Assembly: GCA_963965975.1 (NCBI GenBank)
Contig: OZ014420.1
Span: 5,234,001-5,298,000, forward strand
Length of the DNA stretch: 64,000 nucleotides
Direction of reading: 5' to 3'
Origin: Xestospongia bergquistia
Lineage: Eukaryota > Porifera > Demospongiae > Haplosclerida > Petrosiidae
Shown: positions 3,766 through 64,000 of the stretch, one piece after another
Position numbering within the stretch: the stretch's first letter is position 1
Layout: every line of letters starts with the position of its first letter
Position numbers and translations under genes: made by a program
The notes under the pieces: model-generated
Seen by the model: the letters and a program-made list of their open reading frames with translations, nothing else
The model's database searches: none
What the model was told of the DNA's origin: nothing

Positions 3766-4654
3766 ATGGCAGCTGTAGCAGGTGCTGCTGCTGTTCTTCT
3801 TTGCAGTCTACTATGTTCTATTGTGTCATTAACACAGTCTCAAAAGATAGTTATTCGTTATAGTAATAGCTGGGCAGTAGAGGTTACTGGAGGGAAAGAC
3901 AAAGCTGATGAAATTGCTGAGAGACATGGCTTTATAAATTTAGGAGCTGTAAGCATGACACTGATATATTTTACTCACACTAACTATTATTTCTATTACA
4001 GATTGGTTCATTAAATAATATGTACCACTTCCTTCTTGATTCTGATGGTGATCATCAAGTAAAAGATCTAATTGGTGGAGAGATCCAACATCATACCAAT
4101 GCTCTTAAATCAGAGCAAGAGGTAATGCATGGATAATTACATAATAATAAATGTCAAGTAGTTCCTTACTATGTTTACAAATGCTGCATCATCATTCAAG
4201 TGATAGTGTTTTTAATAGAGGAACTATTTGGAGAATCAATATTATTGTGTGACCATCTATTTGATAAACAAGAATAATATTCATGTGGGGTAGATATATG
4301 TACACCACTGTATGTAAAACAATTCTGTCTTTAGTTGAATAATAGTGATGTAAATGGATCCATCAAAAGAAATAGTAAAAATTTAAAAAATCATTGTCTG
4401 ATTGTATAGGTTGGTTTTGTAGAACACCAAAGACTACATACCTGGCAAAAGAAATATCTACAGCCTACTGATTCTACTGACCCACTATGGAGTTCACAGT
4501 GGTGTCTGGTAAGTCATATGATATGTATTGACATATCATGACTAATTGCATTTATTAGTACCAGTCCATTCTATGAATAACTTTATATTGCTCTGTCATA
4601 GAAAGTTATTCATTTAAGACTTACTCTTTCACATAATAAATATACAAATTTCAT

Positions 4655-37870: not shown

Positions 37871-38489
37871 CATACCATCATCTATAATTCCAACAGTAAC
37901 TCCTTTGCCTGTAATGCCTTGAACCCATGCACTTTGTATGTTCAAATCATATCCAGATGGACCATTAGTCTGACCTGTATTATACTGAAGATATAGTTAC
38001 TGATAGCACTTAATTAATACAACACTTATTACCAAAGGCCATTGGTCTCCCCAGAGTGGATCAGTTGGTGGTGTAAATCCTTTTCTTTCATAAATTCTCA
38101 CTGTCTGTTTCTTGATGTGTCTGACCTATCATAATTAATCAGACTAAACTTACTTTATGATAATCATCACTTTTATCACCTTTGTTTCTTTTTTCAAGTC
38201 ACTTATGTGACCAATCATAGATCTGCTGCTGTCTTTGTCAGATATAAAATGATACACATGTTTAAGCTTTCCAACCTATTGATATAATTTATCATGCATA
38301 TTTGAAAGCAGAGTTTTGGTATAATCTTACCTGTCCTTTGTATTGAAAGCCATGTTTATCAGCTAATGATATTGCTTCTTCTTCTCCTCCTTCAAGAAAT
38401 ACAGCCCAATGAGATAAAGATAATGCTTCAGTAGTTAATAAAAGTAACAAAACAGAGCAAAAAGAGATCATCAGTTCTTGGATATTCAT
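34674..38489 (-). CDS. PC-D: proprotein convertase, GPI-type tail
   Basis: Exons (minus): 38489-38331, 38275-38180, 38125-38033, 37984-37876, 36945-36908, 36854-36689, 36630-36455, 36407-36189, 36134-36034, 35979-35746, 35691-34674; sum 2409 nt, 802 aa, open. Signal peptide within residues 1-27, prodomain, then S8 domain with Asp151 (IIDDG), His192 (DAHGTKCAG), Asn294 (AAGNGG) and Ser369 (GTSAATP). P domain about 465-620 ([20 protein letters not shown]), one furin-like Cys repeat 633-677, long Ser/Thr-rich stalk, then a 23-residue hydrophobic end with no cytosolic tail, preceded by GCSS, a fair GPI omega site. The activation region is YERK-GFTPPTDPLW, again without R-X-K/R-R. The start is chosen for its signal peptide and TATA box. 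It is the intact parent type of the four minus-strand relics. Confidence 0.88.
37521..37669. mobile_element. MITE with perfect 19-bp hairpin (PC-D intron 4)
   Basis: Inverted ends AGAAGCCAAAAAGTA (37521-37535) and its complement (37655-37669). In the centre is a perfect palindrome, CTATTTCAACTGAACTAAT (37575-37593), loop CCA, and its complement (37597-37615). A diverged relative is at 44131-44527. The flanking ACTCAATATGTATAAAG (about 37497) also recurs at both ends of that relative. Confidence 0.6.
37837..37867. repeat. (AT)n microsatellite
   Basis: Pure AT run in intron 4 of PC-D, close to the donor site of exon 4 (donor at 37875-37871 on the minus strand). Confidence 0.9.
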
Positions 38490-38753: not shown

Positions 38754-41700
38754 TCAAAATTCAGTATAACCCTCCTGGCTTCTCCATTTACGATAAAAAC
38801 AAATTCCAGTAACTGCTACACCAATAATGACTAATGCTACTGACACAATAGGCACAACAATAGCTGCTACAATGGTGCCTGTAATTTCATGTGGACATTC
38901 TTCACAGTAACCAGCAACATCACAGTAGTTTGTAGGACAGCTTGATACACAAAAGAGACTATCCACCATACGGAGTGATTGGCATTCATCACAATATTCT
39001 GAACTATTGCCATAAGAGCATCCTCGGGCACAGCTCTGATCACATTGACTAGGAATTCTTTCAACAGCATCAGGAATCTCTTCTGTTCCATATAAGGTCA
39101 TAGAGAGATTAGACATTTTTATATGACCTCCTTGTGCACCAAAACGTACAGAAATATTCCATAGTCCATAAGGAGATTCACCCCAGTGTTGTACTGAAGA
39201 AAATGGCCACTTGAAGTAACCTTCATTGTTTACAAAATCATATTTTCGTTTTGGTAGTAAATATGAGGGTGTGCCATGTGGTGAGTGAAGTTCAACTGTT
39301 ATAGCCCCTCTTCTTGGTCCATTAAAGAAAATAATGAATGGGTTCTCATCTATGTAGTCTTCACCATAGTAATCTGGATAGTCATATTGATCGTCAATGT
39401 AAATTTTAAGTGTCATTTTAATAACAACATGTTCAATATACTTGATAGAACATTTCTTGTAGTTGACATTGAAGAATGTTGTGAGTGGCTCAGATTGGTA
39501 AATTGTGCTGTAAGGCAAAGAAACAATGACATTACATAATAATCTACAAGTCTCTTAACTAACACTAACACTCTACTGTCTACATAGAATAATCAATAAT
39601 GTTAAAAAGATATATATAAACACACAGTTAACGTTGACCTTAGAATGCTATGGCAACAGGAAAGCATCATATTTACATTACATTACATGTCCCTTGTTTA
39701 ATTATTGACTATTGTACATGTCTTAGACATTGATATTCTACTTATTACATTGAAGTATTAAATTTTATGATGCTTACCTAACTTTTCTTTTAGGTCTCAT
39801 AAAACATGAGACTCTTTGTGGTACAGTGGTCCAATATCTGGCCCTCGTCACCATAGCTTCAGCATCAATAGCTCCAAATCCAAACTCATGACTGACTTTA
39901 AGACCACCACCATTTGTCATCCAGTGTCCTCCCTGCAATTTACTAGGATCTGAGGTGTATGCTATTAAATATTGGATATCTCGCCAAGTTAATAATGAAC
40001 TGTAATAAACAAGTAACATTAACTAGCTAAATAGTAAGACAAACTTACTTTGCATTCAGTGCTAATGCTATAGCACCTGCTGTTAATGGAGCAGATGCAC
40101 TTGATCCTGTAAAGCTGTCTGTACATTGTTGATTGGTGAGTGTGGTAAGCTGAAAGTGGTTAAATATTCTTCTTATATTAATATTGCTTACCACTTGTCC
40201 ATTACTTTTTTCGTTGTTAATTGTATAAGTAGCTGAATTGAAACTGAATGTAACAGCCATTTTAGATGCACAGCTCTCATCATATTCAGCCTGATATCCA
40301 TATTCATCAGCTGAACCAACAGCAATAGTGTATATACTAGACGCATAGCCATCTGCTGCACATGAGTCACCATTTTTTCCTCCATTTCCTGATGCCCAAA
40401 CATATATATTACCTAATCCATTACGCCCCTTTAAAAAAGAATAAAAGGACAAGTTTTGTAGTATATCATTATTTATAAGCTCAATACCTTCATTACTCCA
40501 TTTTCAATTGTGGTAGTCAATAATTCTCCTGGCCCATCTACAGTATAGCCTGAGTCATTGGGTCCCCAACTGCTTGAGTAAATGTCTATATATTGATTTT
40601 GATATCCAAGAGCACTAGATTCAATAATATCCGAAGATGAAGTTATGTTAATACGTATTCCTAATTATACCAGAAGATAGTAGAAACAATTTTATTAGCC
40701 TATATTAATATACCTCCTATATGAGAATCATAAGCTACTCCAGCTCCACAGTTTCCAGTATTTTTTTTCATTGAAATGATTCCAGCGCAACTTGTTCCAT
40801 GAGTTTGTTTAGAGCGATTGGGTGGAGTAGGATCCTTCATAAAATCAACATAATTATAACTAGCAGCTTTATCCTTATATAAAATGAATTAATAAAGTAT
40901 GGGTCACTAATGGAAGGAAGACTTACATAATTTCCTGTTAAGTCAGGATGAGAGTGATCCAGTCCTGTGTGATGTAAGGAATAACATTGTGTTAACTCTG
41001 TTAACGCATTTGTCATTTTACATACATACCATCATCAACTACACTAACTACAATGCCTTTTCCAGTGATTCCTTGCATCCAAGCATGAACAACATTGAGA
41101 TCAAGAGCGTTTGCATTCTTTGTTATACTACCAGTGTTATACTACAAGATATAAATGTAATTGATTATGTATTGGCCTCTATATCATACCAATGACCATT
41201 GCTTTCCCCAAAGTGGATCATCTGGAAAACTAAATCCTCTATAAGAATGGACTTTTCTTTGTTGCTGTTGTGCATATTTTACCTGTATATGACACAATGA
41301 ATGTATATTACTAAGTAATACAGGTGGTTGTTTTCTCACTCTTGTGTCATTGAGTAGTCTTTTGGTGACTGATTTTAATAATTCATTTTTTGATTCAGGT
41401 AGAATAAAGTGGTAAATATTTTTCAAATTCCCCACCTATATTAAATATAAAGTAACATTATAGTATGTGTAGATTGTGCAATCAATACTCTCATGCATTA
41501 TGTACACATTATAATATTATTTCCACAAATCAATTATATACTATGATGATCCTGCATTCAACACATGTAAAATAACAACGAAAAGTGCAATGTTTTTGTT
41601 TGCATTCTTTAAGTTTAATATGTAACAACAGCTAGAAAACTATATACTGTAGTGATTTGTACAAGCAAAATCACACAAACATAACAATCTTGTGAAGCTA

Positions 41701-41944
41701 CCTTTCCACGATTTACAAACCCATACTGATCTGCAATCCTATCTGCTACATGATCCCCTTCATTGACTTTGACTGCCCAACTGTTCAAATAGCCTGGGGA
41801 TTCCACAGATAACACAGGAATAAACCATTCTTCTGATTCATCAGCCAAAACAGATGGAATGATCAATGATGATACCACTTGTTGGGGACAAAGTAACAGC
41901 AACATCAAGGTGATAGGGAAGGCGCAACAAGTTGTTGCAAACAT
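38754..41944 (-). CDS. PC-E: proprotein convertase, transmembrane type
   Basis: Exons (minus): 41944-41702, 41435-41340, 41282-41190, 41141-41030, 40964-40927, 40873-40714, 40660-40488, 40428-40192, 40149-40049, 39999-39778, 39507-38754; sum 2229 nt, 742 aa, open. Signal anchor region at 1-30, longer prodomain start than the others, catalytic Asp180 (VVDDG), His219 (QTHGTSCAG), Asn320 (ASGNGG) and Ser401 (GSSASAP; Ser instead of the usual Thr before it). P domain with RRGAITV rather than RRGD, one Cys-rich repeat, a transmembrane helix at about 702-729 and a 13-residue cytosolic tail ending YTEF, a possible YxxPhi sorting signal. Activation region VHSYR-GFSFPDDPLW. Exon phases match PC-D and PC-F. 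Head-to-tail with PC-D and divergent from the prodomain gene at 42653. Confidence 0.88.
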
Positions 41945-42610
41945 AGTGATATGATCTTTGTGGTCACTGGCAATATTTAATGATCAGGATAAACTCAATG
42001 AAATTATGATAAGGTCTTTAAGTCTGCTCTTAACCTGATAACTTTGAAATACTTAAGAACTACAATAAACAAAAATCTACTAGTTGTACTAAGCAACTCA
42101 TACTGTAAATATATACTACAATTATTATATTGACCAGTATATATATATGCGTATTTAAGTTAGGCATTTTTGTGACTCTTAAGGTGACAATTTCTGGCTC
42201 AATAGTAAGTAGCTGAATACAATTAATCAGAAATTAGTGACAACATATTTTCTATTCATAGTTCCATTTTGTCAGTTGTCAGGGCAACAGAGATTTCTAT
42301 TCAGATTTCTGATATAATATCTGTGACCATCTGTTGATAAGCAGTCATTATTAGAATGTGTTATATCTGAGTATTGACTGCATCTATATAGAGAGTTATG
42401 AATATTAATTACACAAGTAACACGTTTGCATTAACACCTGCTCATGTTGGATTGTTTATATACATACACTATGCATCAGTACAACTATATATATATGATA
42501 ACTCACACTACACACATAGCATAAATTATGCTGACATGAAATATGAATCCTTCAACAGCCCAGCTAAGATATTTGCATTTTATATAAACAGTATCATGAC
42601 ATAATTATTT
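41945..42610. promoter_or_regulatory. Divergent spacer between PC-E and the prodomain gene
   Basis: 666 bp between the divergent starts. A TATA box for the plus gene is at 42581-42588. I see no clear TATA for PC-E. The plus open frame 42398-42604 has no family features. Confidence 0.45.
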
Positions 42611-42652
42611 ATGCTTAGAGCTAGTATAATTGTGTTAATCATCTCAAATAGA

Positions 42653-43197
42653 ATGAGTGTTCTCTCTAGTTCATTTTTAATGATATTTCCATTGATGTTT
42701 GCATTTTCTAGTAGTGTCCCTGTAATTTGTAAGTTTACAAATGAAATTGCTGTTGCATTAGCTGAAGGATGTGGTGAGGAATGTGCCAGAACAATAGCAA
42801 CTCGTTATGCACTCTTTTATAATGGACCTATCTCAGAGGTACAATGACATAATTTCAATGTACAACTATACATGTATTTACCGAATACAATGATCAACTA
42901 TAATTTGTACTATTTTTTGTACACAGGATGGTTTTTTGAGTCATTACCACAGCTTTAAAGTTATTCTACTATCTGAAAAGAGTCATCTTATTATTAACAA
43001 TATGTTAAGCATGTTACATCATTTACAAAGAGATAAACAGGTCTGTAACTGTTACATCATTTTGAAATAGATCATAATAAGTCCATTTTGGCATTTAGAT
43101 AATGGAAGTGGAGTTACAGTGCAAGAATGGTCGTGTTTTGAGGTACCAACATCTTTTCAAGAACTCGTTAAATATTAAAAGGAAACATAGTTCATAA
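42653..43197 (+). CDS. Stand-alone PC-like prodomain protein
   Basis: Three exons in phase: 42653-42838 (or from the upstream ATG 42611), 42927-43040, 43099-43197, ending in TAA; 132 aa from the second ATG, 146 from the first. It has a hydrophobic signal peptide (MSVLSSSFLMIFPLMFAFSS), then a chain that aligns with the PC prodomain exon by exon. Introns fall at the same places and phases as in PCs, and exon lengths are close (114 versus 120 or 96 nt; 99 versus 99 or 93 nt). Where PCs go on to DPLW..QW, this one has NSLNIKRKHSS and a stop. The TATA box 65 bp before 42653 favours the second ATG. No catalytic domain follows; CX-G begins 183 bp on. It could be a free propeptide (chaperone or inhibitor of neighbouring PCs) or a truncated relic. 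Confidence 0.6.
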
Positions 43198-43318
43198 AAA
43201 TTAATATTTTATGTTTTTCTAAACATTCGATTTTCAATTACTATTTAATAGAAATAAAGGGAGTGGTTCCACTTGTCATATTGCATCATAATGTTACTAC
43301 GTAGTATTGCGTATAAAG

Positions 43319-43326
43319 TATATAAA
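43319..43326 (+). promoter_or_regulatory. TATA box of CX-G
   Basis: TATATAAA 54-61 bp before the ATG at 43380, in a gap of 182 bp after the prodomain gene. Confidence 0.55.
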
Positions 43327-43514
43327 TACAGGAGTAACCTCAAGTTATTTATAACTTATAGTTACAGGCTGTAACAAAGATGGTTGCTAAGGTGATGTTA
43401 ATGTTCACTGTTTGTCTGCTGTATGTAGTCAATAATGGAGTACAAGCTTTTGGCCAAGGTAACCAAATTACTTTAAGCCTTGGAATATATTATTTAATAA
43501 TGTAACATCAAAAA

Positions 43515-43740
43515 TGACCCAAAAAATTAATTCGTCTGTTGTTAAAGGGACCAAATTCTTTAGCTATTTCTAATAAGTTTATGTTATCAGTACAGTCCTT
43601 ATGTGTATGTAACAGCATGAGGTAGTTTAGTTGTTCTTGGGTCATAGTGCTTCGTAGGTAATTTTTTAGTCAGTGTAAGGTTGAAAAAGTGTGTTCTGTT
43701 CTATTAATACTTTTGTTATAGCAATTAATTTTACAGAAGG
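43515..43740 (-). pseudogene. hAT transposase C-terminal (dimerisation) relic
   Basis: The minus strand reads RTEHTFSTLH, a stop, then LKNYLRSTMTQEQLNYLMLL and LLEIAKEFG...NNRRINF. This is the C-terminal dimerisation block typical of ZMYM1-like hAT transposases. One in-frame stop and no upstream domain. It lies antisense in intron 1 of CX-G. The G-rich/C-rich hairpin at 43848-43910 (GGGGGCTTCAGCCCCCC) beside it is probably a terminal piece of the same kind of element. Confidence 0.7.
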
Positions 43741-44130
43741 TAACATGACCGCACAATAATATGGTGATTGATTGTTAATGTACACAAATTAACACAATAA
43801 CCACTTCAGTCAAGAGGTTATTGTGTACATAGTCTTGAGTGCAAATCTTGGGGGGGGGGCTTAGCCTGATTTGAAGTTTTGGGGGCTTCAGCCCCCCTGC
43901 CCCCCCCTTTCTACCCTTATGTATGTATGTATGTATATGTATATGTATTATCAATATTACAATTGGCATATAACTAAAGTATTGTCATCAATTACACTTG
44001 TACTAACACAATAGGATTTATATATTACATTTTTTGTAGTGAAGATATTACTCAGTCCCAGAATCATTATCACATAGAGAGTGTAAATAGATTACTACTT
44101 TTCAGGACCTCATACACTTAAAATAGTATC

Positions 44131-44527
44131 TTGTCATTTCTATAATTGTCTTTGTTACCAGAATCTCATCAAGTTGATGTAAGGCCATCATTGAGAGCCA
44201 AAAACTATTTACTCAGTATGTATAAAGTGAATTAGAAGCCAAAAAGCACTCTTTGTAGTTTATTGTCCAATAACTGAAACTATATGAGGGAGAGGTAGAT
44301 ACTACTTCAACTTAACTAATTGGATTAGTTCCTTTCTTATAGCTTCAAATGAAGCCATGATTCGATTATTATAACAAAATGGGTGTTAAAGCAATGTGGT
44401 TGCAGATGCAACTAGTTGGATTTATGCATATTGAGTTACACTAGTATTGGCCTTGTAGCAACTTAGAATTGGGCTTACATCAAATTAATGTAACTGTAGT
44501 AACGAAGACCTTAGTTAAAATGACAAT
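44131..44527. mobile_element. About 400-bp MITE with long inverted ends
   Basis: The left end, TTGTCATTTCTATAATTGTC..., matches the complement of the right end (44461-44527), including the GTTAC and TTGATGTAAG blocks. Internal AGAAGCCAAAAAG and ACTCAATATG motifs link it to the element at 37521-37669. Confidence 0.55.
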
Positions 44528-47013
44528 GTGTTTTTTTAGTGTATGCTGCTATAATGTTGTTATTAGCCATAATTATCAATGGTATTTCAAATCTGTGTCA
44601 GGTTTCTTAGATAACTAAACCATTGTTTATACTATATGATCAAATAATCTGGAGATGGTAAGAGAACAGTCTAACTAACTTAGACTACATGATAAAAGTG
44701 TGCAGTTAGGATGTAGATACTGACACAAGCCTTCAGAGCTATCATTTGATAATTATTATGCTTGTATCATAGAGTATGAAGAAAGTTCTGAAGTCACTAC
44801 CTTTTAGAGTCATTTTTGCACTAATAACTCTTTGTCAGACTAACATGGAACATAATGATCATAACAGAGAACAGCAGAGATTCGAAAGAACGTTTTTACC
44901 CTATATATAGTTATTGGTGTCATTATAGCTACTGTCTTAAAGAGAAAAATGAAAAGTGAAATCTTTCAGTCTGGGACTTAAGTTATTGGAGCTAGATAGA
45001 TCAATACTTTATATTGTAATTTATTGATGTAGCTATCACTGTTTATTGTTTACATATTTATAAATTTTAAAAACTTTTATTATTAAAGACACCTGCTTAA
45101 AAATTTATGAATAGGTAGGTATCTTGATGAATCTTTTGAAATACTTTTAGGACAAATTCATTCTGTAGACTAATATTAAAGTTCATTGTAGCCAATTTAG
45201 GCAAATTGTATATACCAATTGATTTTAGCAAGAAATATCACACTTTTACGAAAAGAAGTCAAGTAATTAAAGGAATTGATTAAATGAAGTCCCTTATGCA
45301 TGATGTGTTAAATCTTAATATATCACAACTAAGTTCGCCATGTGTATACAAAGAATACGTTAAAATTCAATTAAGTCCTACAAATTCTACATAGACAATA
45401 AAGAAATTAGTTAGACTACATATAGGCTATACAAGGAAGTAATAACCAAGAACCTTGCACCTTTAGTATACTGTCAGCTAACCATTTCCGAAGGTGATTA
45501 TTACTAATAGTATCCATAATTTAAGTTTTCATTATGTATTGATAAAGTCATGCAGTGCATTTCACTGAATAATTAAAATATCATACATTAAGTACAAGTC
45601 ATCTACAAATTCACTAGCTGAAATATGTATAAACAGTCAATGTGTGAAGGTTGATTTTATATATATTTGCATTAACAACATGAAATACAAAATAAAAGAA
45701 CATACCTTATATACCTAACACATGTCTAAAATAACTTTTAGACTGTCCTGCAGACTTTTTGTGCCAGGTAGAAAAAGTAGGAATTGGTTATGTAATAGAA
45801 TACATGTTTCAGTAAACTTAATGAATGAGGTAATTCCTCACATGGCCTCTGATATGTTATGGATGTTTTCACTAGACTTGCTAAGATAAACAATCAAACT
45901 CTCAAGTTTATAGCTGATTTTAATGCGCTAAATTTAGCACATAAACCATCGAGTGTTTGCTATAAGTAAATGAGCAGTTTTATGTTTTGTAATACTATTT
46001 TTATTTACTATATCTGTGACAGTCACTTTGATCTTATTTGGGATATATGTATATATTTCTAGGTTTAAACTGGCAACAGTAAGTATCATATTTCTTTGAA
46101 TAGAGGCCAACTCCAGATAGAGGTTAGATCTCAAATTGACACTTGGGTAATCTGAGGCAAATAGTAAATAGAAGCCTAGTCTCGAATTGAGGGTTATTGA
46201 CCATACTTTTCCCACATCTAGCTATTTATACTCATGTTTCTCCCATTCTTTATGTTTCAAAATGTCCAAGACTTCGGCAAGAAGAAATCTATCTAAGTTA
46301 TTTCCAAGCTTACAGGTGTTGATAATCCAAAGAAATATCCTAGCAAACTGCTGTAAGAGATTTTAATGTGGGCATTGTTAGATTAATAATTTTTGTTAGA
46401 ATTAATGCCTTAGATGGGAAATCAAAACTTGGAAAAGATATAAAGGCCCAGATCTTTATTTGAGAAGATACTATACAATTACACACTGATTTAGTAGTAA
46501 TGAAATACTACTGTTAATTACTAATTATTCAGGATACAGTACATGGACTTTATAATAGATATATATTAGAATGTGCTAATTGACTATTATTGTATGTGAT
46601 GTCACTAACGCTTAGTCATGATTGTTCCAATGACAAAGTGAAAAAGATGACTCAATTGTGTATGTGATTGATTATTTTGATGTATTGGTAACACTGGGAA
46701 CAAATCTACCTGATTTGAGTTACTTGTGCCATGTATTACTTGATCATGACTAGAGTACTTCTAGCCTAAAAATTAGTGTCATATATTATGAATCCTTCTT
46801 TCCCAAAGACAAATAGGTCTGTAGGGAGAATTATTGAGTTATACAACTAAAGTATATAAATAGATGGCTGTATAAAATGAATGTATTCTTATTAATTATA
46901 ATCATGGGAAATGTATCATAATTTCAAGAAAGTAGCAAAGTCTTGAACAAGGAAATCTCTTTACTAACTATAGTGTTGATCTTGATGTTATGTTATTTTA
47001 TTAATTGTTATAG
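44528..47013. other. Rest of CX-G intron 1
   Basis: No gene or clear repeat recognised. A minus open frame of 93 codons (45934-46215) matches no family I know and has no coding context. No sign of the CX-H N-terminal exons, so CX-G truly lacks them here. Confidence 0.5.
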
Positions 47014-47662
47014 GCCCAGAAGTCATAATGGTCAATCCTATTATAACAATAAATGAAAATGAAGGATCTATTGATATCTGTGTTGAGCTGACTGGAAGTG
47101 GCTATCAGTTAGACAATAATCTGACTATTACTTTAACTGACATTGGAACTACAAACTCAGTTTGTATGTAAACTATTAGTTTAAACTTTTGAAGAAATCT
47201 ATCTTTTCTCTATAGTTGGTTCTGACTATGCTTTTACTAGACCACTTACAGTGACATTTGTCTCTGGTGCTGTACCAGGCAATGCATCATGTACTGTTAT
47301 CACAATCATTGATGATGATGCATTAGAGGGTACACACAATTTTACTATTGCAATTGATGTGAACACTAGTCTTTACAATATTTCCACACCTAGCGAATCC
47401 ATTATTACAATTACTGATAATGAAGGTCAGTTTAAAGCTTCTTATAACAAACAATGATATACAACATTCTATTTTGATTTTTTAGATGTCATCATAACTT
47501 TACAGCCCCATTACTGCAGTAATAGAGACTTCATCATATATTAGTGTGTGTATACAATTAAGTGGTGTTCCTAGTGGTGGATTGGAAGTGTACATTGTTG
47601 TGGATATATCTACAAAAGACAATACAGCTACAAGTAATAACACTGTTAATAAAACAGATATA

Positions 47663-47692
47663 CATACACACACACACACACACACACACACT
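47663..47692. repeat. Short (CA)n in CX-G intron 4
   Basis: About 11 CA units beginning 30 bp after the GTAATA donor. The equivalent place in CX-H carries the expanded run at 56271-56487. Confidence 0.85.
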
Positions 47693-49465
47693 AGTTTAAT
47701 TAAGGTACATTATGATTATGAACAAAATAGACAATTACTTCTCCCCTATGATTAATGTACTAAAGTTTTGTCACATACTCTTTATCACATGACTTATATC
47801 CATTATTAAGGAGTAAAGTAATATCCTTTATTATTATTATTATCATTTTATAGGTACATCTCCAGCTGACTATACTTCATTTACAACTCAAGTTATATTT
47901 CCTAGTTCAGTCTTTCCAGATGAAACTAGTTGCACAACTGTTTCCACAATTCTTGATGACTTGATTCTAGAAGATGATGAAACATTTATTGTAGAAATAA
48001 CTAGTGTTTATCCACCTGTCACTATAGGAAGTCCTTCATCAGTTATGTTGACCATTATTGACAATGAAAGTGAGTTATATTATTTCCACCTATATATTTT
48101 ATATTTTTTATTCTATATACAACATACAACTGTTAATATTATTACTATGAATGTTGTATTAATTTTGATGATAAAAAGCTGTCTTTTTTAGTGGCTGAAG
48201 TCAACTTTGAAAATACAACATATACATTTATGGAAGGAGACAGTCAACCAATTTGCACTATAATAACAGATGTACCTAGTGGTGGAAGTGAAGTTAATGT
48301 TACAGCAAGAGTATTATTAGTGGATGGATTAGCTAATGGTATGAAATTAACTTAACATTAGTTATGCCTTTTAATGCAAAGAATTAATACCATTTGATTT
48401 TTTACTGCATATATATAACTGGTCTAGTATAAGAATTGTTATATAATATTAAAACTATATGATGGCAGAATTAGTAAAAGACTACATGTTACATTTCTTT
48501 TTGTAAGGTAATGATGTTACTCTCATCACAACTATGTTGACATTTCAAGAATCTATGATAGAAAATGGCACAAAATCTTGTATCAATATTAGTATTACGA
48601 ATGACATGATATTAGAAGATACTGAGAGCCTTCAACTAACTCTGTCAAATCCTTCACCTGCTAGTATTGTGTTTGGACCAAATTCAACTGTGAGAATCAT
48701 TGATGATGGCAGTATGTTATCAGTATAATACAATTGAATACATATAATGCATGTAATAAACACGTGCTCATGTTGTACATGTCAATATAGCATTAATTAA
48801 GTTTCTGATTCTATCATTAATAGCTGATAGTCTAAATATTATTGACAGAAAATACATATATCCTTTTGTTGTAGTTGCTAGTTATTTTACTTTCACAAAG
48901 ACCAAGTATCTAGTTCAAGAAAATCAAGGGTCTTTACAGGTCTGTGTTTCAACACTTAAACCTCCACAAACTTCTCAGCCTTTGGTTGAAATAACAATCA
49001 TTAACGGCAGTGCTATAGGTTAGTTTACAGTGTAACATATATGTGATCCGTATGTTAATGTGACTCTTAATTATATAGAAGGTATTGATTTCAGTAAGGA
49101 CTCCACTACTACCCTTACCTTTCAACATACATCAGCAGCATGTACTAACTTTACAATTAACAATGATGGTATAACTGAGGGAGAGGAAGAATTTAAGTTA
49201 GTCTTGGAATCAATCAGTTCTTTAGCTATTGTTAATGGACCTACCACTGAAGTTGATGTCATTTTCTATGATCCAGATGGTAAGTATTATATTTTAATGC
49301 TAATGACTAACATTTTATTGCTACATTATAGCGTGTTTTCCTTGCTCTGTTTGTACTGAAATTCGTGTCTTACAAACATGCAGACTGCTTTCTTCAAAGG
49401 GTCAACGTTTGCCTCTCCCTTGTCTTGCTCTTGAAGCAGAATATAGAGATGTTGGTGGCAATTAG

Positions 49466-54400: not shown

Positions 54401-56390
54401 GTGCAATTCTATAATAATATTATTATAGATATTATAAGTATATATATTTGTATATCTCTATGCATAACTTGAACCATCTATAAAATAATTGATGTTATAA
54501 GGCAAAGCTGTAATATTTTTGTATGACTACAAAAGCTTAAGCTACATAAGTAGTTTTAAACTTGTCAGAGAAAGGATTCTGTCAAAATAAATCAGTTTTC
54601 ATTGTATATAAAGTGTCATTGCATATATGAAAGAAAGTCAATACAACAGTTCCTATTTTCAAGCCTTATCTACAATGAAAAGTTTTAAATTGAATAAACC
54701 ATTCCAGCATAATTCTACCAGATAGTGACTGTGAAACTGAGAAAACAAAAATTATAACAACAAAGAAGAAATTAAATAGTTGTCTTCAGGACCATGGCCT
54801 GATCTGGTTAAATGTTGGCTACATCTGTTAGGAAAGTAATGATGTCACTTTTTCAATTGATGACTATATGTATGGTATAAATATACTGTTTGATTGTTAC
54901 ATTTTGGCTGACAAATACCCTCCTTGTAAACATGGAAGAAATATAGTCATATATTGATCTGCTATCTGTTAAGACCACGCAGGCACACCTTTAAGTTACA
55001 TTCTGGGACTGTTCTGTGATGTACGCAATTTTGATGTTTTCACTTGTTCTCGTGTTGCTTCTCCATTGTCTATACATGTTAGAGCAGAAATGGCAAGAGA
55101 ATGTTATGATCAGTGAGTATGAAAGATGGATCAGACCTCCTTCACACCTCAAATCTTCATTGCAGGGGTATGGTATATGTTGAAGGTCATATTTGCAGTA
55201 AATAGGTTCATTTGCAACTCTCAACACATTTATAAGTAATGACAGGAAACTTTATTAACTAATTAAAATTCTTATACTCATAGACAATCTAACAATGTGT
55301 ACAAGAACTACATTGCTAATAACTTCTCATCCATAAATATATATGTGGCAAATTATAATGCAAACTATTATGCATTGTGATTCTATCCTACATTATAGTT
55401 TCCTCCAAAGGTTGAGCTATTTACTACAATGATTTGTAGTGTATGTATGTAAATGGTTTGTGTATACAAATAAATTGTTGTTTATTATTGTTAACATTAT
55501 TGATTGTGTACTTGGAGAAACCAAGAAAGTAGCTTAGTATAAAATAAAAAAGTAATTGCTTAAATATAACTACTTATTTGTCTCCTCCAACCTATGCAAT
55601 ATATTATTTTATTAATTGTTATAGGCCCAGAAGTCATAATGGTCAATCCTATTATAACAATAAATGAAAATGAAGGATCTATTGATATCTGTGTTGAGCT
55701 GACTGGAAGTGGCTATCAGTTAGACAATGATCTGACTATTACTTTAACTGACATTGGAACTCCAAACTCAGTTTGTATGTAAACCATTAGTTTAAACTTT
55801 TGAAGAAATTTATCTTTTCTCTATAGTTGGTTCTGACTATAACTTTACTAGACCACTTACAGTGACATTTGTCTCTGGTGCTGTACCAGGCAATACATCA
55901 TGTACAAATATCATAATCATTAATGATCGTGCATTAGAGGGTACACACAATTTTACTATTGCAATTGATATGAACACTACTCTATACAATATTTCCACAC
56001 CTAGCGAATCCATTATTACAATTACTGATAATGAAGGTCAGTCAGTATAAAGCTTCTTTATAACAAACAATGATGTACAACATTCTATTTTTGATTTTTT
56101 AGATGTCATCATAACTTTACAGCCCATTACTGCAGTAATAGAGACTTCATCATATATTAGTGTGTGTGTACAATTAAGTGGTGTTCCTAGTGGTGGATTG
56201 GAAGTGGACATTGTTGTGGATATATCTACAAAAGACAATACAGCTACAAGTAATAACTCTGTTAATAAAACAGACACACACAGACACACACAGACACAGA
56301 CACACAGACACACACACACAGACACACACACACAGACACAGACACACACAGACACAGACACACACAGACACAGACACACACAGACACACA

Positions 56391-56489
<99 letters not shown>

Positions 56490-58257
56490 TAGTTTAATTA
56501 AGGTACATTATGATTGTGAACAAAATAGACAATTACTTCTCCCCTATGATTAATGTACTAAAGTTTTGTCACATACTCTTTATCACATGACTTATATCCA
56601 TTATTAAGGAGTAAAGTAATATCCTTTATTATTATTATTATCATTTTATAGGTACATCTCCAGCTGACTATACTTCATTTACAACTCAAGTTATATTTCC
56701 TAGTTCAGTCTCTTCAGATGAAACTAGTTGCACAAATGTTTCTACAATTCTTGATGACTTAATTCTAGAAGACGATGAAACATTTATTGTAGAAATAACT
56801 AGTGTTTATCCACCTGTTACTATAGGAAGTCCTTCATCTGTTATGTTGACTATTATTGACAATGAAAGTGAGTTATATTATTTCAAACAATATAATTAGT
56901 ATTTTTTATTATATATACAACATATAACTGTTAATATTATTACTAGGAATTTTGTATTAATTTTGATGATAAAAAGCTGTCTTTTTTAGTGGCTGAAGTC
57001 AACTTTGAAAATACAACATATACATTTATGGAAGGAGACAGTCAACCAATTTGTACTATAATAACAGATGTACCTAGTGGTGGAAGTGAAGTTAATGTTA
57101 CAGCAAGAGTATCATTAGTGGATGGATTAGCTAATGGTATGAAATTTAATTAACATTAGTTATGCCTTTTAATGCAAAGAATTAATACCATTTGATTTTT
57201 TTACTACATATATATAACTGGTCTAGTATAAGAATTGTTATATAATATTAAAACTATATGATGGCAGATTTCATAAAGGACTACATGTTACATTTCTTTT
57301 TGTAAGGTAATGATGTTACTCTCATCACAACTATGTTGACATTTCAAGAATCTATGATAGAAAATGGCACAAAATCTTGTGTTAATATTAATATAACAAA
57401 TGACATGATATTAGAAGATACTGAGAGCCTTCATTTAACTCTGTCAAATCCTTCACCTGCTAGTATTGTGTTTGGGCCAAATCCAACTGTGAGGATCATT
57501 GATGATGACAGTATGTTATTGTATAATACAAATGAATATATCTAATACATGGTGCTCGTGTTGTACATGTACAGGTGCTTGTGTTGTACATGTCAATATA
57601 TCATGCTAATAGTCACTAATAATGTAGATATTATTAACAAAAATACACATATCTATTATTTTGCAGTTGCTAGTTACTTTACCTTCACAAAGACCAAGTA
57701 TCTAGTTCAAGAAAATCAAGGGTCTTTACAGGTCTGTGTTTCAACACCCAACCTTCCACAAACTGCTCATCCTTTGGTTGAAATAACAATCATTAATGGC
57801 AGTGCTATAGGTTAGTTTACAGTGTAACATATATGTGATTCATATGTTAATGTGACTCTTAATTATACAGAGGGTATTGATTTCAGTAAGGACTCCACTA
57901 CTACCCTTACCTTTCAACATACATCAACAGCATGTACTAACTTTACAATTAACAATGATGGTATAACTGAAGGAGAGGAAGAATTTAAGTTAGTCTTGGA
58001 ATCAATCAGTTCTTCAGCTATTGTTAATGGACCTACCACTGAAGTTGATGTTGTTATCTATGATCCAGATGGTAAGTATTATATTTTAATGCTAATGACT
58101 AACATTTTATTGCTACATTATAGTGTGTTTTCCTTGCTCTGTTTGTACTGAAATACGTGTCTTACAAATATGCAGACTGCTTGCTTCAAAGGGTCGACGT
58201 TTGCCTCCCATTTGTCTTGCTCTTGAAGCAGAATATAGAGATGTTGGTGGTAATTAG
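51447..58257 (+). CDS. CX-H: secreted EGF and Calx-beta repeat protein
   Basis: Twelve exons: 51447-51870, 51917-52063, 52111-52293, 55625-55774, 55827-56036, 56103-56249, 56652-56867, 56990-57136, 57307-57510, 57667-57810, 57871-58071, 58124-58257; sum 2307 nt, 768 aa, open. Signal peptide 1-20; a unique N-terminal domain (to about 141) with CPLP and RTDCFNC; Cys-rich segment 142-190; EGF-like repeat ending CDCSATG..GINC by 251; Calx-beta repeats 252-371, 372-492, 493-609 and 610-724; Cys-rich tail CFPCSVC to 768. No membrane segment, so secreted; many N-glycosylation sequons. Every inner exon begins and ends in phase 1, which favours duplication of whole repeats. The 3.3-kb intron 3 may hide another exon (near 52460-52570). 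The role is probably Ca-dependent matrix or adhesion; the substrate or partner is unknown. Confidence 0.82.
52294..55624. other. Intron 3 of CX-H
   Basis: A Cys-rich stretch at about 52460-52570 follows an acceptor-like TTGTAG but leaves in the wrong phase to join exon 4. 54110-54180 has a GCGTAGCCAGGC scrap typical of hAT-like MITE ends. No other feature recognised; small open frames on the minus strand (52645-53867, 54991-55227) look like chance. Confidence 0.5.
56271..56487. repeat. (CA)n/(CAGACA)n microsatellite in CX-H intron 6
   Basis: About 215 bp of CA repeats with interspersed CAGACA in the first 120 bp, starting about 20 bp after the donor of exon 6 (GTAATA at 56250). The apparent HT- and CV-rich open frames here are artefacts of the repeat. 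Confidence 0.9.
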
Positions 58258-59152: not shown

Positions 59153-62100
59153 ATGACTTTACTTACTTTGACTTTGTTATTATTGTACCTTGAAATCGGA
59201 GTACGTGCAGGATATCACTCTAGTTGGCTTATAAAGATAGCACCTGCCAATCAAGCAAGTGCTGTTTTTTATGCTGATTCTTTAGCGCAACAAAACGGAC
59301 TGGTCAACGTAGGCCAGGTGAGTACAGCGATCTCGTTGCAATGAGTAACTATATTTTATTGAGAAACTAGTACACAAAATCTTGTCTATTATTTTAAACA
59401 TGAAAGAATATATTAAATGTACTGTCTGTCAGCTAATCCTGCTCACTCTCAGATACTTGTTCCTTTGAAGAGGTGTGTACTCAGACTATACCCTCAGTTA
59501 TCAATAGATTAAGTTTGTTCTTTAGATTTTAGTCATTCATTTAGTGTTGTTTTTCATATTTTAAGAGGGCCTGTTTGTGGCACGTTTAAAAATCCTATGA
59601 TAATGCACACAAGTACATTAATGATTTATCATTCTTTTTTCAGGTAGGACAATTAAAAAATGTCTTCCAATTTAAATATCCTCAAGGGAAAAGACATTCT
59701 TATCCTAACATTACAGCATCTTTACAGAATGGAAGCCAGGTTCATATAGAACAACACTACAATAGAGTCTTTATATGTTGTATTAGGTAGTGTATGTGGA
59801 ACAAGAGCAATCTCTGAATCATGTTAAGAGAAACTTTTCTCTTCCTTCTGATCCTTACTGGCAATATCAATGGCCATGGGTAAAACTAAATTTTCAATAT
59901 ATACATGTATAATCCATAGTGTGATCAAGGTTTTATAGCATTCCTTGAAATTCTTTGTTATAGTATTGAGAGGATGAATGAATCACATGACTATAACTAT
60001 AGTTTATAGTGTAATAATATTTCATGACACATTCAATGATATCATATACTCTATATCACACTGTATCCAGTAATATAGCAATATTGCCTTAGTACAACAC
60101 AGGTCAAAGTGGAGGACCATCTGACTATGATATTAATGTAGTACCAGTTTGGATTGAAGGAGTCTCTGGAGCTAATACTACTGTCTTAGTTATTGATGAC
60201 GGTAAAGATATATTCATGCAATCCTATTTTTATTTATTCCATATATAGGCATACAAACTAATCATCCTGACCTCCAAGACAACATTGTAAGAGGTCTACT
60301 TCAAATATTATTAGAAAAAAAATTTTGTGATGTTGCCTTTAGTTTATGTAATATATCCCTCACATTGAGGAATTTATAGTATAGGTTCATTTTTAACACA
60401 ATTAAATGATCCTTGTCTCGTGTAATATCAATTAGTCAATGACCTCTTCTTTTAGGATCTATCACTATGTTATAGTGTTATAAGAGATAATAATGATATC
60501 TCAGCTATTTCTTCATTTAAAGATTTTGGACATGGTACGTCATGTGCTGGAGAGATTGCTATGATTAGAGATAATGGTGTTTGTGGAGCTGGTGTAGCTT
60601 TTAATACCAGAATAGGAGGTCAGTTATACATGTATGGAATGAGAATATTAAAAGAAGTGATTTTGTGGTTATCTTGAATTCAATGTTTTCTTAGAAAAAG
60701 TTTACAAACAGTGGAGTATTTAGAAAGACTAGTATATTTAAATATGTTAGAAGGTCTTCTAATTCTCTATAACCATTAAATCTAACATTACTATAATGTC
60801 TACTGTTAATCATGTGATTTACTCTTAAAGAGAATGTGCATATCATAGCTCTAACATTTTTGTAATAGTGTCTGTATAAACATTGAAAAACAGCAAAGCA
60901 TTAATTAGTCTTTGTTCTTTGTAATTACCATTTTAGGTTTTCAAGTTGATTTTAGTGATTTCTTACCAAGCTATGAAGTGAAAGCATTTGGTTTTCGTTC
61001 TGATGTTATTCAAGTGTACAGTAATAGTTGGGGTCCTAATGATGATGGATTTGTTGTACGGGGGCCAGGTCAATTTTCATATGAGGCTCTCTATGAGGGA
61101 ATAACTAATGTGAGTTTATATTACATTGTCTTAAGAATAAATTGTGTTCTTGTTTTCAATGATTGCTTATATCAATATTTCTTATACCTTCCAGGGACGT
61201 AATGGTAATGGATCAATTTATATCTTCTCTTCTGGTAATGGAGGCCATTATGGAGACTCATGTGCTGCAGATGGCTATACATCTAGTATATACACAATAG
61301 CTGTAGGATCAGCTAATCAGTTAGGAGAACAAGCCTTCTATGATGAAGATTGTTCTGCTAAAATGACTGTCACTTATAGCTATAACAGTTTTAATGCAAG
61401 TAATCAAGTTGTAAGTACCTTATAGTGTAAACCACATAAAATATAATATTTTATAGGCAACTACATTTCCAAGTAGTGAGTGTGTAAGAAATTTTACTGG
61501 TACAAGTGCATCAGCTCCACTAGTAGCTGGAGTCATTCTATTAGCTCTTGAAGTCAAGTGAGTTCAGTTACAGGATATATTAGCATTTTCTATTATCTTA
61601 TTTATAGTCCTGACTTGTCTTGGCGTGATGTACAATACCTTATTGCCTATACTTCTAAGACAGCTAACTTAGAAGGAGAGTTTGTAACTAATGGTGCTGG
61701 TCTTAAAGTTAGTAATCAGTTTGGATTTGGAGCTATTGATGCTGAGGCTTTAGTAACAAGAGCTAGATACTGGACACCTGTAGGAGAGGTAGTAAATATT
61801 ACGGAACCTATAATGTGAGTATATTTTATTGTCAAGTTATTAGGATTTTAGTGTATATTTACAATGTTTGTTTCACAATATTACAAACTCAAGACAAGTG
61901 ATTTTTTATAATAGATGTATATATGTCCCTATTATTACAAAACATTTTACAATGCTACATTTTACTGTTGTATTTTTGTCTTCAATAGAGGTGGACCTTC
62001 TCTGGTTATAACAAAGGGCAACCCTTATAAAGGAACAAGACCAATACTTTCTTGGAGTGGACGATACCTAGAACATGTGATATTGGAGGTGACCTTTGGG

Positions 62101-63196: not shown

Positions 63197-63744
63197 CACA
63201 ATTTATTGTCATTACTTTAATTTTTTTTTCTCAATCTGTAATAGATAGTACTGAGTGCTTTTAAATTTTTTTTAAATTAAATTTTTAATCACTAAGTGGC
63301 CATGGGTGGGGTATATAGTGTAGTTGTCATGGAAATAAACTAATATGAAGAAAGATTGTTCAAGCAGTAACATTGAATCACAATCTCTTAAAAGAGTAGA
63401 AAGTAATAGTACTTGCCACTTAGTGGCATCCATATCAAATATAAAGACAAATACACTATAAACAAAATAACTTCGAATTTTAGCCTAAGACAGATTTAAT
63501 TACAACAAATAGGTCACATTCTAATGCTACCACATTTTAGAAATTTCAATGCTGTCTAACTAAATGGTGTTGTTGTATCATGAACTCATACAGTATAGTA
63601 TGTAGTCACTGGCTTATAGGCGCGATGTATGCCAGAGCAAAAAATTGGGGTCTCTCTATATAATGTTTATTACTTTAAAGTTATGTTTTCAATTGCAGTC
63701 ATTAAGATCTAATTGGTAACTGATTGTAAATAGTTAATTAACAT
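63197..63744. other. 3' flank of PC-F
   Basis: Contains the direct repeat copy 2 (63531-63735) matching 58390-58830. Short complementary pieces (CACTAAGTGGCCATGG near 63291, CCACTTAGTGGCAT near 63417) could be a small decayed inverted-repeat element. No gene seen. Confidence 0.5.
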
Positions 63745-64000
63745 AAGTTTCACAGGTGGTTTTAATCTCTTACTTCAACATGTTCCTCTGTTCCAACATA
63801 TCAAAGTTGCAAAGCTCCTTCTTCAGATTCCATCTAATACTTCTACAGGTCCCGATGGTATTTCAGCTCGTATGTTAAAAGAAACTGCCTACCCCATTTC
63901 ATCACCACTTCTACTTTAATCTTTCAATTAAGTCTGGTATCTTTCCTGATGACTGGAAAAACTCTCATATTATCCCAATACCAAAGCACTCTTCAGCTCC
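63745..64000 (+). pseudogene. Non-LTR reverse transcriptase fragment, runs off the window
   Basis: Plus frames read the start of a non-LTR RT: STGPDGISARMLKETAYP, then after a frameshift near 63915 SGIFPDDWKNSHIIPIPK. Both blocks are standard for the N-terminal part of RT in Jockey/CR1-like elements. The 5' end is cut at the repeat boundary (63740); the rest is outside the window. Confidence 0.75.

Follow-up and report, generated by a model that had tools for sequence, protein, structure and literature searches.

Two genes that seem to encode a proprotein convertase (PC) prodomain alone, with no catalytic or P domain found behind it, are present in this genome (146 Mb in 21 contigs). The first, at C11:5566306-5567036, is strongly supported by its sequence as a stand-alone PC prodomain and can be taken as the firm case, and the second, at positions 42653-43197 of the 64,000-nucleotide stretch of DNA analyzed here (the window, C10:5234001-5298000), is a probable case. 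We propose that the window gene derives from one of the PC genes in the local array and encodes a stand-alone secreted prodomain that would act in trans on convertases, a reading to which we assign a probability of about 0.45. On the evidence of these two genes, convertases of this species may be regulated by separately encoded proteins that the species itself produces.

Structure of the window gene

The window gene runs from an ATG at 42653 to a TAA stop at 43195-43197 in three exons, and both introns are GT-AG and of phase 0 (Table 1), confirming the frame, the introns, and the stop codon given in a preliminary description of this DNA. The TATA box and the signal peptide proposed there were also recovered, as a TATA-like TTATATAAA at 42580 and a hydrophobic N-terminus. 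The arrangement of three exons with phases 0 and 0 is that of the PC genes of this genome. The claim that intron positions and phases are kept was borne out for both phases and for intron 2, which lies exactly at the PC position in the alignment, but not for the place of intron 1, which has slid 3 codons further 3′ (GPISE/DG versus GQ/VG, where the slash marks the junction). Exon 3 carries RVLR at the primary-cleavage position; the frame had been thought to stop where the catalytic domain would start, but it runs on for 17 residues between the Arg of RVLR and the stop. At this place, exon 3 of the true PCs carries a DPLW..QW motif, which the tail lacks. Moreover, the Trp of NSWAV, found in eight of the nine aligned rows, is replaced in the window gene, and its product has 4 Cys, whereas counts in ten PC rows ranged from 0 to 3. 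The GC content by codon position (0.386, 0.333, and 0.273) followed the order seen in PCs, more weakly.

The searches downstream of the gene agreed with the earlier view that it holds a prodomain only. On the + strand from 43197 to the PC gene at 59153, there was no match to PF00082 (E ≤ 0.01) or to PF01483 (E ≤ 0.1), and tblastn gave a best E of 4.8 in 42000-47000 when the queries were catalytic pieces from three PC genes plus a P domain from one of them. The catalytic and P domains that follow the prodomain in a PC (S8B) enzyme were thus not found behind the window gene. The next gene on the 3′ side probably starts with the signal-peptide-like exon at 43380, and this exon probably belongs to a gene that we tentatively name Calx-beta-like. 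Two near-alike multi-exon gene copies, Calx-beta-like by eye, lie between the PC genes at 46986-49356 and 55570-58148, and the first of them may start at this same exon.

Table 1. Coordinates of the two prodomain-only genes and of neighboring features; positions are those of the window unless preceded by L030 (L030:4306-5036 is C11:5566306-5567036), and slashes mark splice junctions.
Feature	Position	Strand	Basis or remark
TATA-like TTATATAAA, 65 nt 5′ of ATG	42580..42588	+	sequence; suggestive only, DNA AT-rich
Window gene exon 1, signal-peptide-like N-terminus and first prodomain part, 62 codons	42653..42838	+	open frame, donor GAG/GTACAA
Window gene intron 1, 88 nt, phase 0	42839..42926	+	GT-AG, acceptor TTTTTTGTACACAG
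Window gene exon 2, 38 codons	42927..43040	+	open frame, donor CAG/GTCTGT
Window gene intron 2, 58 nt, phase 0, PC position	43041..43098	+	splice signals, alignments
Window gene exon 3, end of prodomain, 32 codons plus TAA	43099..43197	+	sequence, alignment
AATAAA, 56 nt 3′ of stop	43253..43258	+	sequence; suggestive only, DNA AT-rich
Signal-peptide-like exon, probable start of next gene, 3′ bound of window gene	43380..43458	+	open frame, then GTAACC
PC gene F, nearest and divergent	41190..41944	-	prodomain exons 41702-41944, 41340-41435, 41190-41282
PC gene G, next	38033..38489	-	prodomain exons 38331-38489, 38180-38275, 38033-38125
PC gene on the other side of the window gene	59153..59879	+	prodomain exons 59153-59317, 59644-59739, 59787-59879
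C11 gene exon 1	L030:4306-4512		
C11 gene exon 2	L030:4662-4763		
C11 gene exon 3, VYYVEQQKFSRHVPKTE and TAA	L030:4983-5036		

Likeness of the window gene to convertase prodomains

A match to the prodomain exons of PCs had been claimed for this gene, and we found that the match stands for the spliced whole and is weak in its parts. Against the Pfam S8_pro-domain (PF16470), the window protein scored 15.9 bits (E 0.02), which is under the curated cut-off of 25.5 bits, and the alignment covered nearly the whole family, from profile positions 3 to 77 of 79. Identity to 11 relatives was 25-40% over the aligned residues. When the exons were scored singly, exons 1, 2, and 3 reached 3.9, 0.3, and 0.6 bits and ranked 31 of 5,217, 593 of 7,065, and 289 of 6,483, i.e., at noise level, whereas true PC exons score at least 40 bits in such a search. 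In agreement, the exon-wise profile search with the window gene found no true relative, and genome-wide tblastn with it had no other PC gene among its matches; the three rows at E 0.03 (C10:5513301, 5522420, and 5566317) all contained internal stops. The spliced protein, on the other hand, scored 23.0 bits against a profile of nine PC prodomains from which the candidate was left out, and the maximum among its shuffled versions (18,877 of 20,000 shuffles scored) was 14.6 bits.

To allow for the free choice of exons by a reader, we enumerated all three-exon, phase-0, ATG-to-stop models within fixed length limits. Among the 5,947 models of the window, those listed above the window gene all contain true PC exons, and the next listed model below its 23.0 bits that does not reuse true PC exons scored 3.9 bits. 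Sixty simulated windows yielded 36,972 models with a maximum of 8.5 bits, and the reversed window yielded 394 models with a maximum of 5.2 bits. With a profile without the signal peptide, the window gene scored 20.9 bits (21.3 from an inner ATG) versus a best of 8.4 in 37,631 simulated models. A further 22,423 models were enumerated from 186 kb of other real DNA, of which the best 15 were listed; this set was not used as a null. The enumeration, the shuffles, and the profile of the mature part indicate that the window gene is related to PC prodomains and has diverged strongly from them, supporting the earlier view of a free-standing member of this family. Its weak likeness is not due to chance, and it rises above the background only when the three exons are joined.

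Searched alone against solved structures, the window protein retrieved just two unrelated chains (E 0.5-0.7), and its Pfam scan listed no I9; a nine-row profile made of the C11 gene, seven PCs, and the window gene found the PC1 prodomain 1kn6 at E 6.5e-21. At 2.24 and 2.91 changes per column, the window gene had a very long branch. The trees paired it with the furin-like gene of C12, with support of 95/93 and 91/87, and because of this long branch we treat the pairing as unsure.

The prodomain-only gene on C11

The gene on C11 has three exons in the PC layout, read by eye, and a prodomain only. Its prodomain match, C11:5566432, was the one prodomain locus with no catalytic or P-domain match on its entire contig, among the matches listed, and the best E that tblastn with catalytic pieces gave in the window and in the locus stretches searched was 0.53, with noise only in L030. 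The stop comes 2 residues past the Lys at the cleavage position (HVPK). The gene scored 64.7 bits (E 1.2e-17) against the Pfam S8_pro-domain, thus passing the cut-off of 25.5, and four PC prodomains scanned with it scored 35.3-66.8 bits; its identity to the ten PC rows compared was 29-47%. Its branch (0.82-0.91) is not longer than the branches of F (0.66-0.9) and G (1.41-1.65), which are true PCs.

When the C11 branch was given a separate omega in a codon model, the estimate was 0.08-0.10 and omega = 1 was rejected with 2ΔlnL of 16.6 and 17.1, values that none of the 40 shuffled and realigned controls reached (control maximum 13.7); part of this branch may be older than the loss of the catalytic domain. 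In the trees, the C11 gene was not the sister of the window gene, and its own placement was unsure, so that it does not vouch for the window gene.

Constraint, decay, and alternative explanations

For the window gene, the same kind of test gave an omega of about 0.11, and 9 of the 60 shuffled and realigned controls reached its 2ΔlnL of 5.8, indicating that the test has no force here; some of these control fits were poorly optimized, with negative values. Values of 7.1 and 9.3 had been obtained with five unrealigned shuffled controls and had suggested selection, a result that the realigned controls cancel. We then simulated neutral decay from two PC prodomain loci in four settings, with or without indels, with 200 runs each, counting a run as intact when a model of at least 20 bits remained; a stop after exon 3 was not required. 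At 0.5 events per site, 0 of 200 runs were intact in each of the four settings, at 0.3 events per site the count was 0-11 of 200, and at 0.2 events per site with indels it was 2 and 0 of 200. This result suggested that, through the larger part of its history, the window gene was probably maintained as a coding sequence, and that it may have died recently: being intact at its divergence makes an old dead relic unlikely, and the reading as an old pseudogene was set aside on this basis, but a recent one is not made unlikely by it.

The alternative that we hold to be a distinct possibility is accordingly that of a recently dead or dying PC duplicate, whose prodomain diverged within a full convertase and whose catalytic part was deleted, with the frame not yet broken. 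The very long branch, the lost Trp, and the lack of demonstrable constraint (9 of 60 controls) would fit such a fate, as would the richness of the array in duplications, among them a copy at C10:5221384 with a shortened exon 2 and no P-domain match of its own. It has to be reconciled, however, with three exons and both splice sites that are intact, with a simulated decay that leaves next to nothing intact at 0.3-0.5 events per site, and with a tblastn search of 42000-47000 that found no relic of a catalytic exon. Alternatively, the gene could be real and serve another function, the prodomain having been recruited not as an inhibitor but as a folding chaperone or as a secreted protein, perhaps with disulfide bonds. 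The four Cys and the long branch are in line with this, and so is the 17-residue tail, located where an inhibitory propeptide would end at the basic residue; we nonetheless consider it improbable, as RVLR is retained at the cleavage position and nothing points positively to another target.

Very little weight is given to the idea of a longer transcript that begins with the three exons and is spliced through a donor inside exon 3 to, for example, the following Calx-beta-like gene. Exon 3 does contain an AG/GTACC ahead of its stop codon, and about 180 bases downstream the next gene seems to start on this strand, but that gene seems to own the signal-peptide exon at 43380, and the profile and tblastn searches did not find an S8 exon downstream. 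Last, an open frame that arose by chance in AT-rich DNA, with exons picked for their prodomain likeness, would explain why every exon alone is noise. The enumeration mimics such picking, and neither the reversed window nor any of the 60 simulated ones produced a score near 23.0 bits; this reading was rejected with and without the signal peptide in the profile, and we leave it hardly any probability.

Possible action and comparison with known systems

According to the reading that we favor, a stand-alone secreted prodomain acting in trans, a PC gene of the local array kept just its first three exons, which encode the signal peptide and the prodomain, and lost those for the catalytic and P domains. 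The product would be secreted, some 110 residues long, and folded like a PC prodomain, and its action in trans would take place either in the secretory pathway or extracellularly. Its basic end, RVLR in the window gene and HVPK in the C11 gene, would most likely bind the active-site cleft of at least one convertase of this genome, and the bound enzyme would be inhibited or its activation buffered, as happens with a cleaved PC propeptide on its own enzyme. Regulation of the neighboring PCs in trans by the window gene is plausible by the precedent of SUB1-ProM, the closest case with a demonstrated action, in which a propeptide-like gene adjoining subtilase genes encodes an inhibitor of SUB1 (PMC6993865); the stand-alone I9 propeptides are a further precedent for the reading that we favor. 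A broader proposal is that PC prodomain exons of this genome were converted at least twice, independently, into free secreted proteins, one clearly constrained and the other fast-evolving beside the array, and that these are dedicated natural inhibitors of furin-type enzymes, built from the propeptides of those enzymes and possibly co-evolving with the expanding array; we regard this as less likely than not. A separate PC-propeptide gene would be a trans-regulator of convertases, and for this genome we infer from the sequence all that lies beyond it, i.e., the expression, secretion, fold, inhibitory action, and targets of the window gene product.

The list of known natural proteins that inhibit furin-type convertases is short and comprises proSAAS, 7B2, and a secretory-pathway serpin. 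An article of 2009 stated that no natural protein inhibitor of furin was known, and described the furin prodomain as an 81-residue, potent auto-inhibitor cut at the primary and further sites (PMC2662429); when expressed alone, this prodomain lowered convertase activity in cells (PMC8037623). A prodomain-only convertase gene would be a scaffold of natural origin for inhibiting convertases, and it would show such regulators arising by exon loss. Both genes described here are homologous to the PC prodomain (PF16470; solved example, PC1 1kn6) and share with it the exon layout of the PC genes of this genome and the basic residue at the primary-cleavage site. They differ from it in encoding the prodomain alone, and the window gene also differs in scoring under the Pfam cut-off and in its four Cys, whereas the sequence of the C11 gene is that of a standard prodomain.

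The preliminary description had presented the window gene as a candidate for an undescribed system, which was too strong, as stand-alone propeptide inhibitors of subtilases are already a known kind. SUB1-ProM of Plasmodium is a stand-alone, secreted, subtilisin-propeptide-like gene adjoining subtilase genes and a potent inhibitor of one of them, SUB1; unlike the genes found here, it resembles a parasite subtilisin propeptide and not one of the kexin/furin type, and its inhibition has been assayed, whereas our two genes are known from sequence (PMC6993865). The stand-alone inhibitors of MEROPS family I9, i.e., Pleurotus peptidase A inhibitor 1, yeast peptidase B inhibitor, and Arabidopsis subtilisin propeptide-like inhibitor 1, as well as TgMIC5, are likewise small gene products that have the subtilisin-propeptide fold and act in trans as inhibitors or regulators of subtilases, but the three I9 proteins are described as having no significant sequence similarity to propeptides (PMC6993865), and the two genes reported here derive from convertase genes of their own genome. 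The Inhibitor_I9 profile (PF05922) gave 0 matches in this genome at E ≤ 0.1. Inhibitors of family I29 are cysteine-protease propeptides, with a fold and an enzyme class unrelated to those of PC prodomains. They include CTLA-2alpha, crammer, and BCPI, and have in common with our genes that a free protease-propeptide gene is involved, in their case one that inhibits proteases (PMC4089206).

In Amphimedon, 12 PCs were described, six of them with the full catalytic triad, and the main text of that article never mentions 'propeptide' or 'prodomain' (PMC6850559). Among the articles listed for the terms used in an open-licence library, none was seen to describe a kexin/furin-type prodomain gene that stands alone. 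What seems to be new is therefore a stand-alone propeptide derived from a kexin/furin-type prodomain, those of the subtilisin type being known already.

The convertase array

The window contains six PC prodomain genes, in agreement with the six neighboring PC genes reported earlier; they start at 3766, 16474, and 27454 (+), 38489 and 41944 (-), and 59153 (+), and in PC gene F the catalytic exons follow the prodomain exons. When prodomain exons were paired with downstream catalytic matches, the genome held 19 PC loci: the C10 array with 10 on the + and 2 on the - strand, 3 of the 59153 type, 2 near C10:4519362 and 4524497, and 1 each on C9 and C12. The prodomain model gave 18 matches, representing 17 loci, at E ≤ 0.001 and 22 matches at E ≤ 10, and the pairing of P-domain matches with PC loci was not one to one. 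Upstream of the window, the copy at C10:5221384 has an exon 2 of 23 codons and is perhaps decaying. A P-domain match at C10:5235013 (window position about 1013) has no prodomain before it, and at C10:5174960 there is a prodomain exon 3 with no exon 1 match nearby; these are probably partial array copies, the former being the P domain of an upstream copy.

Other observations were made in passing. The Rfam scan of the window gave 0 matches. At C12:6891774, the furin-like PC has its entire prodomain in a single open frame, whereas the prodomain exons of the other PCs are split. At the right edge of the window, positions 63734-64000 and the sequence beyond carry reverse-transcriptase-like frames of what appeared by eye to be a non-LTR-type element.
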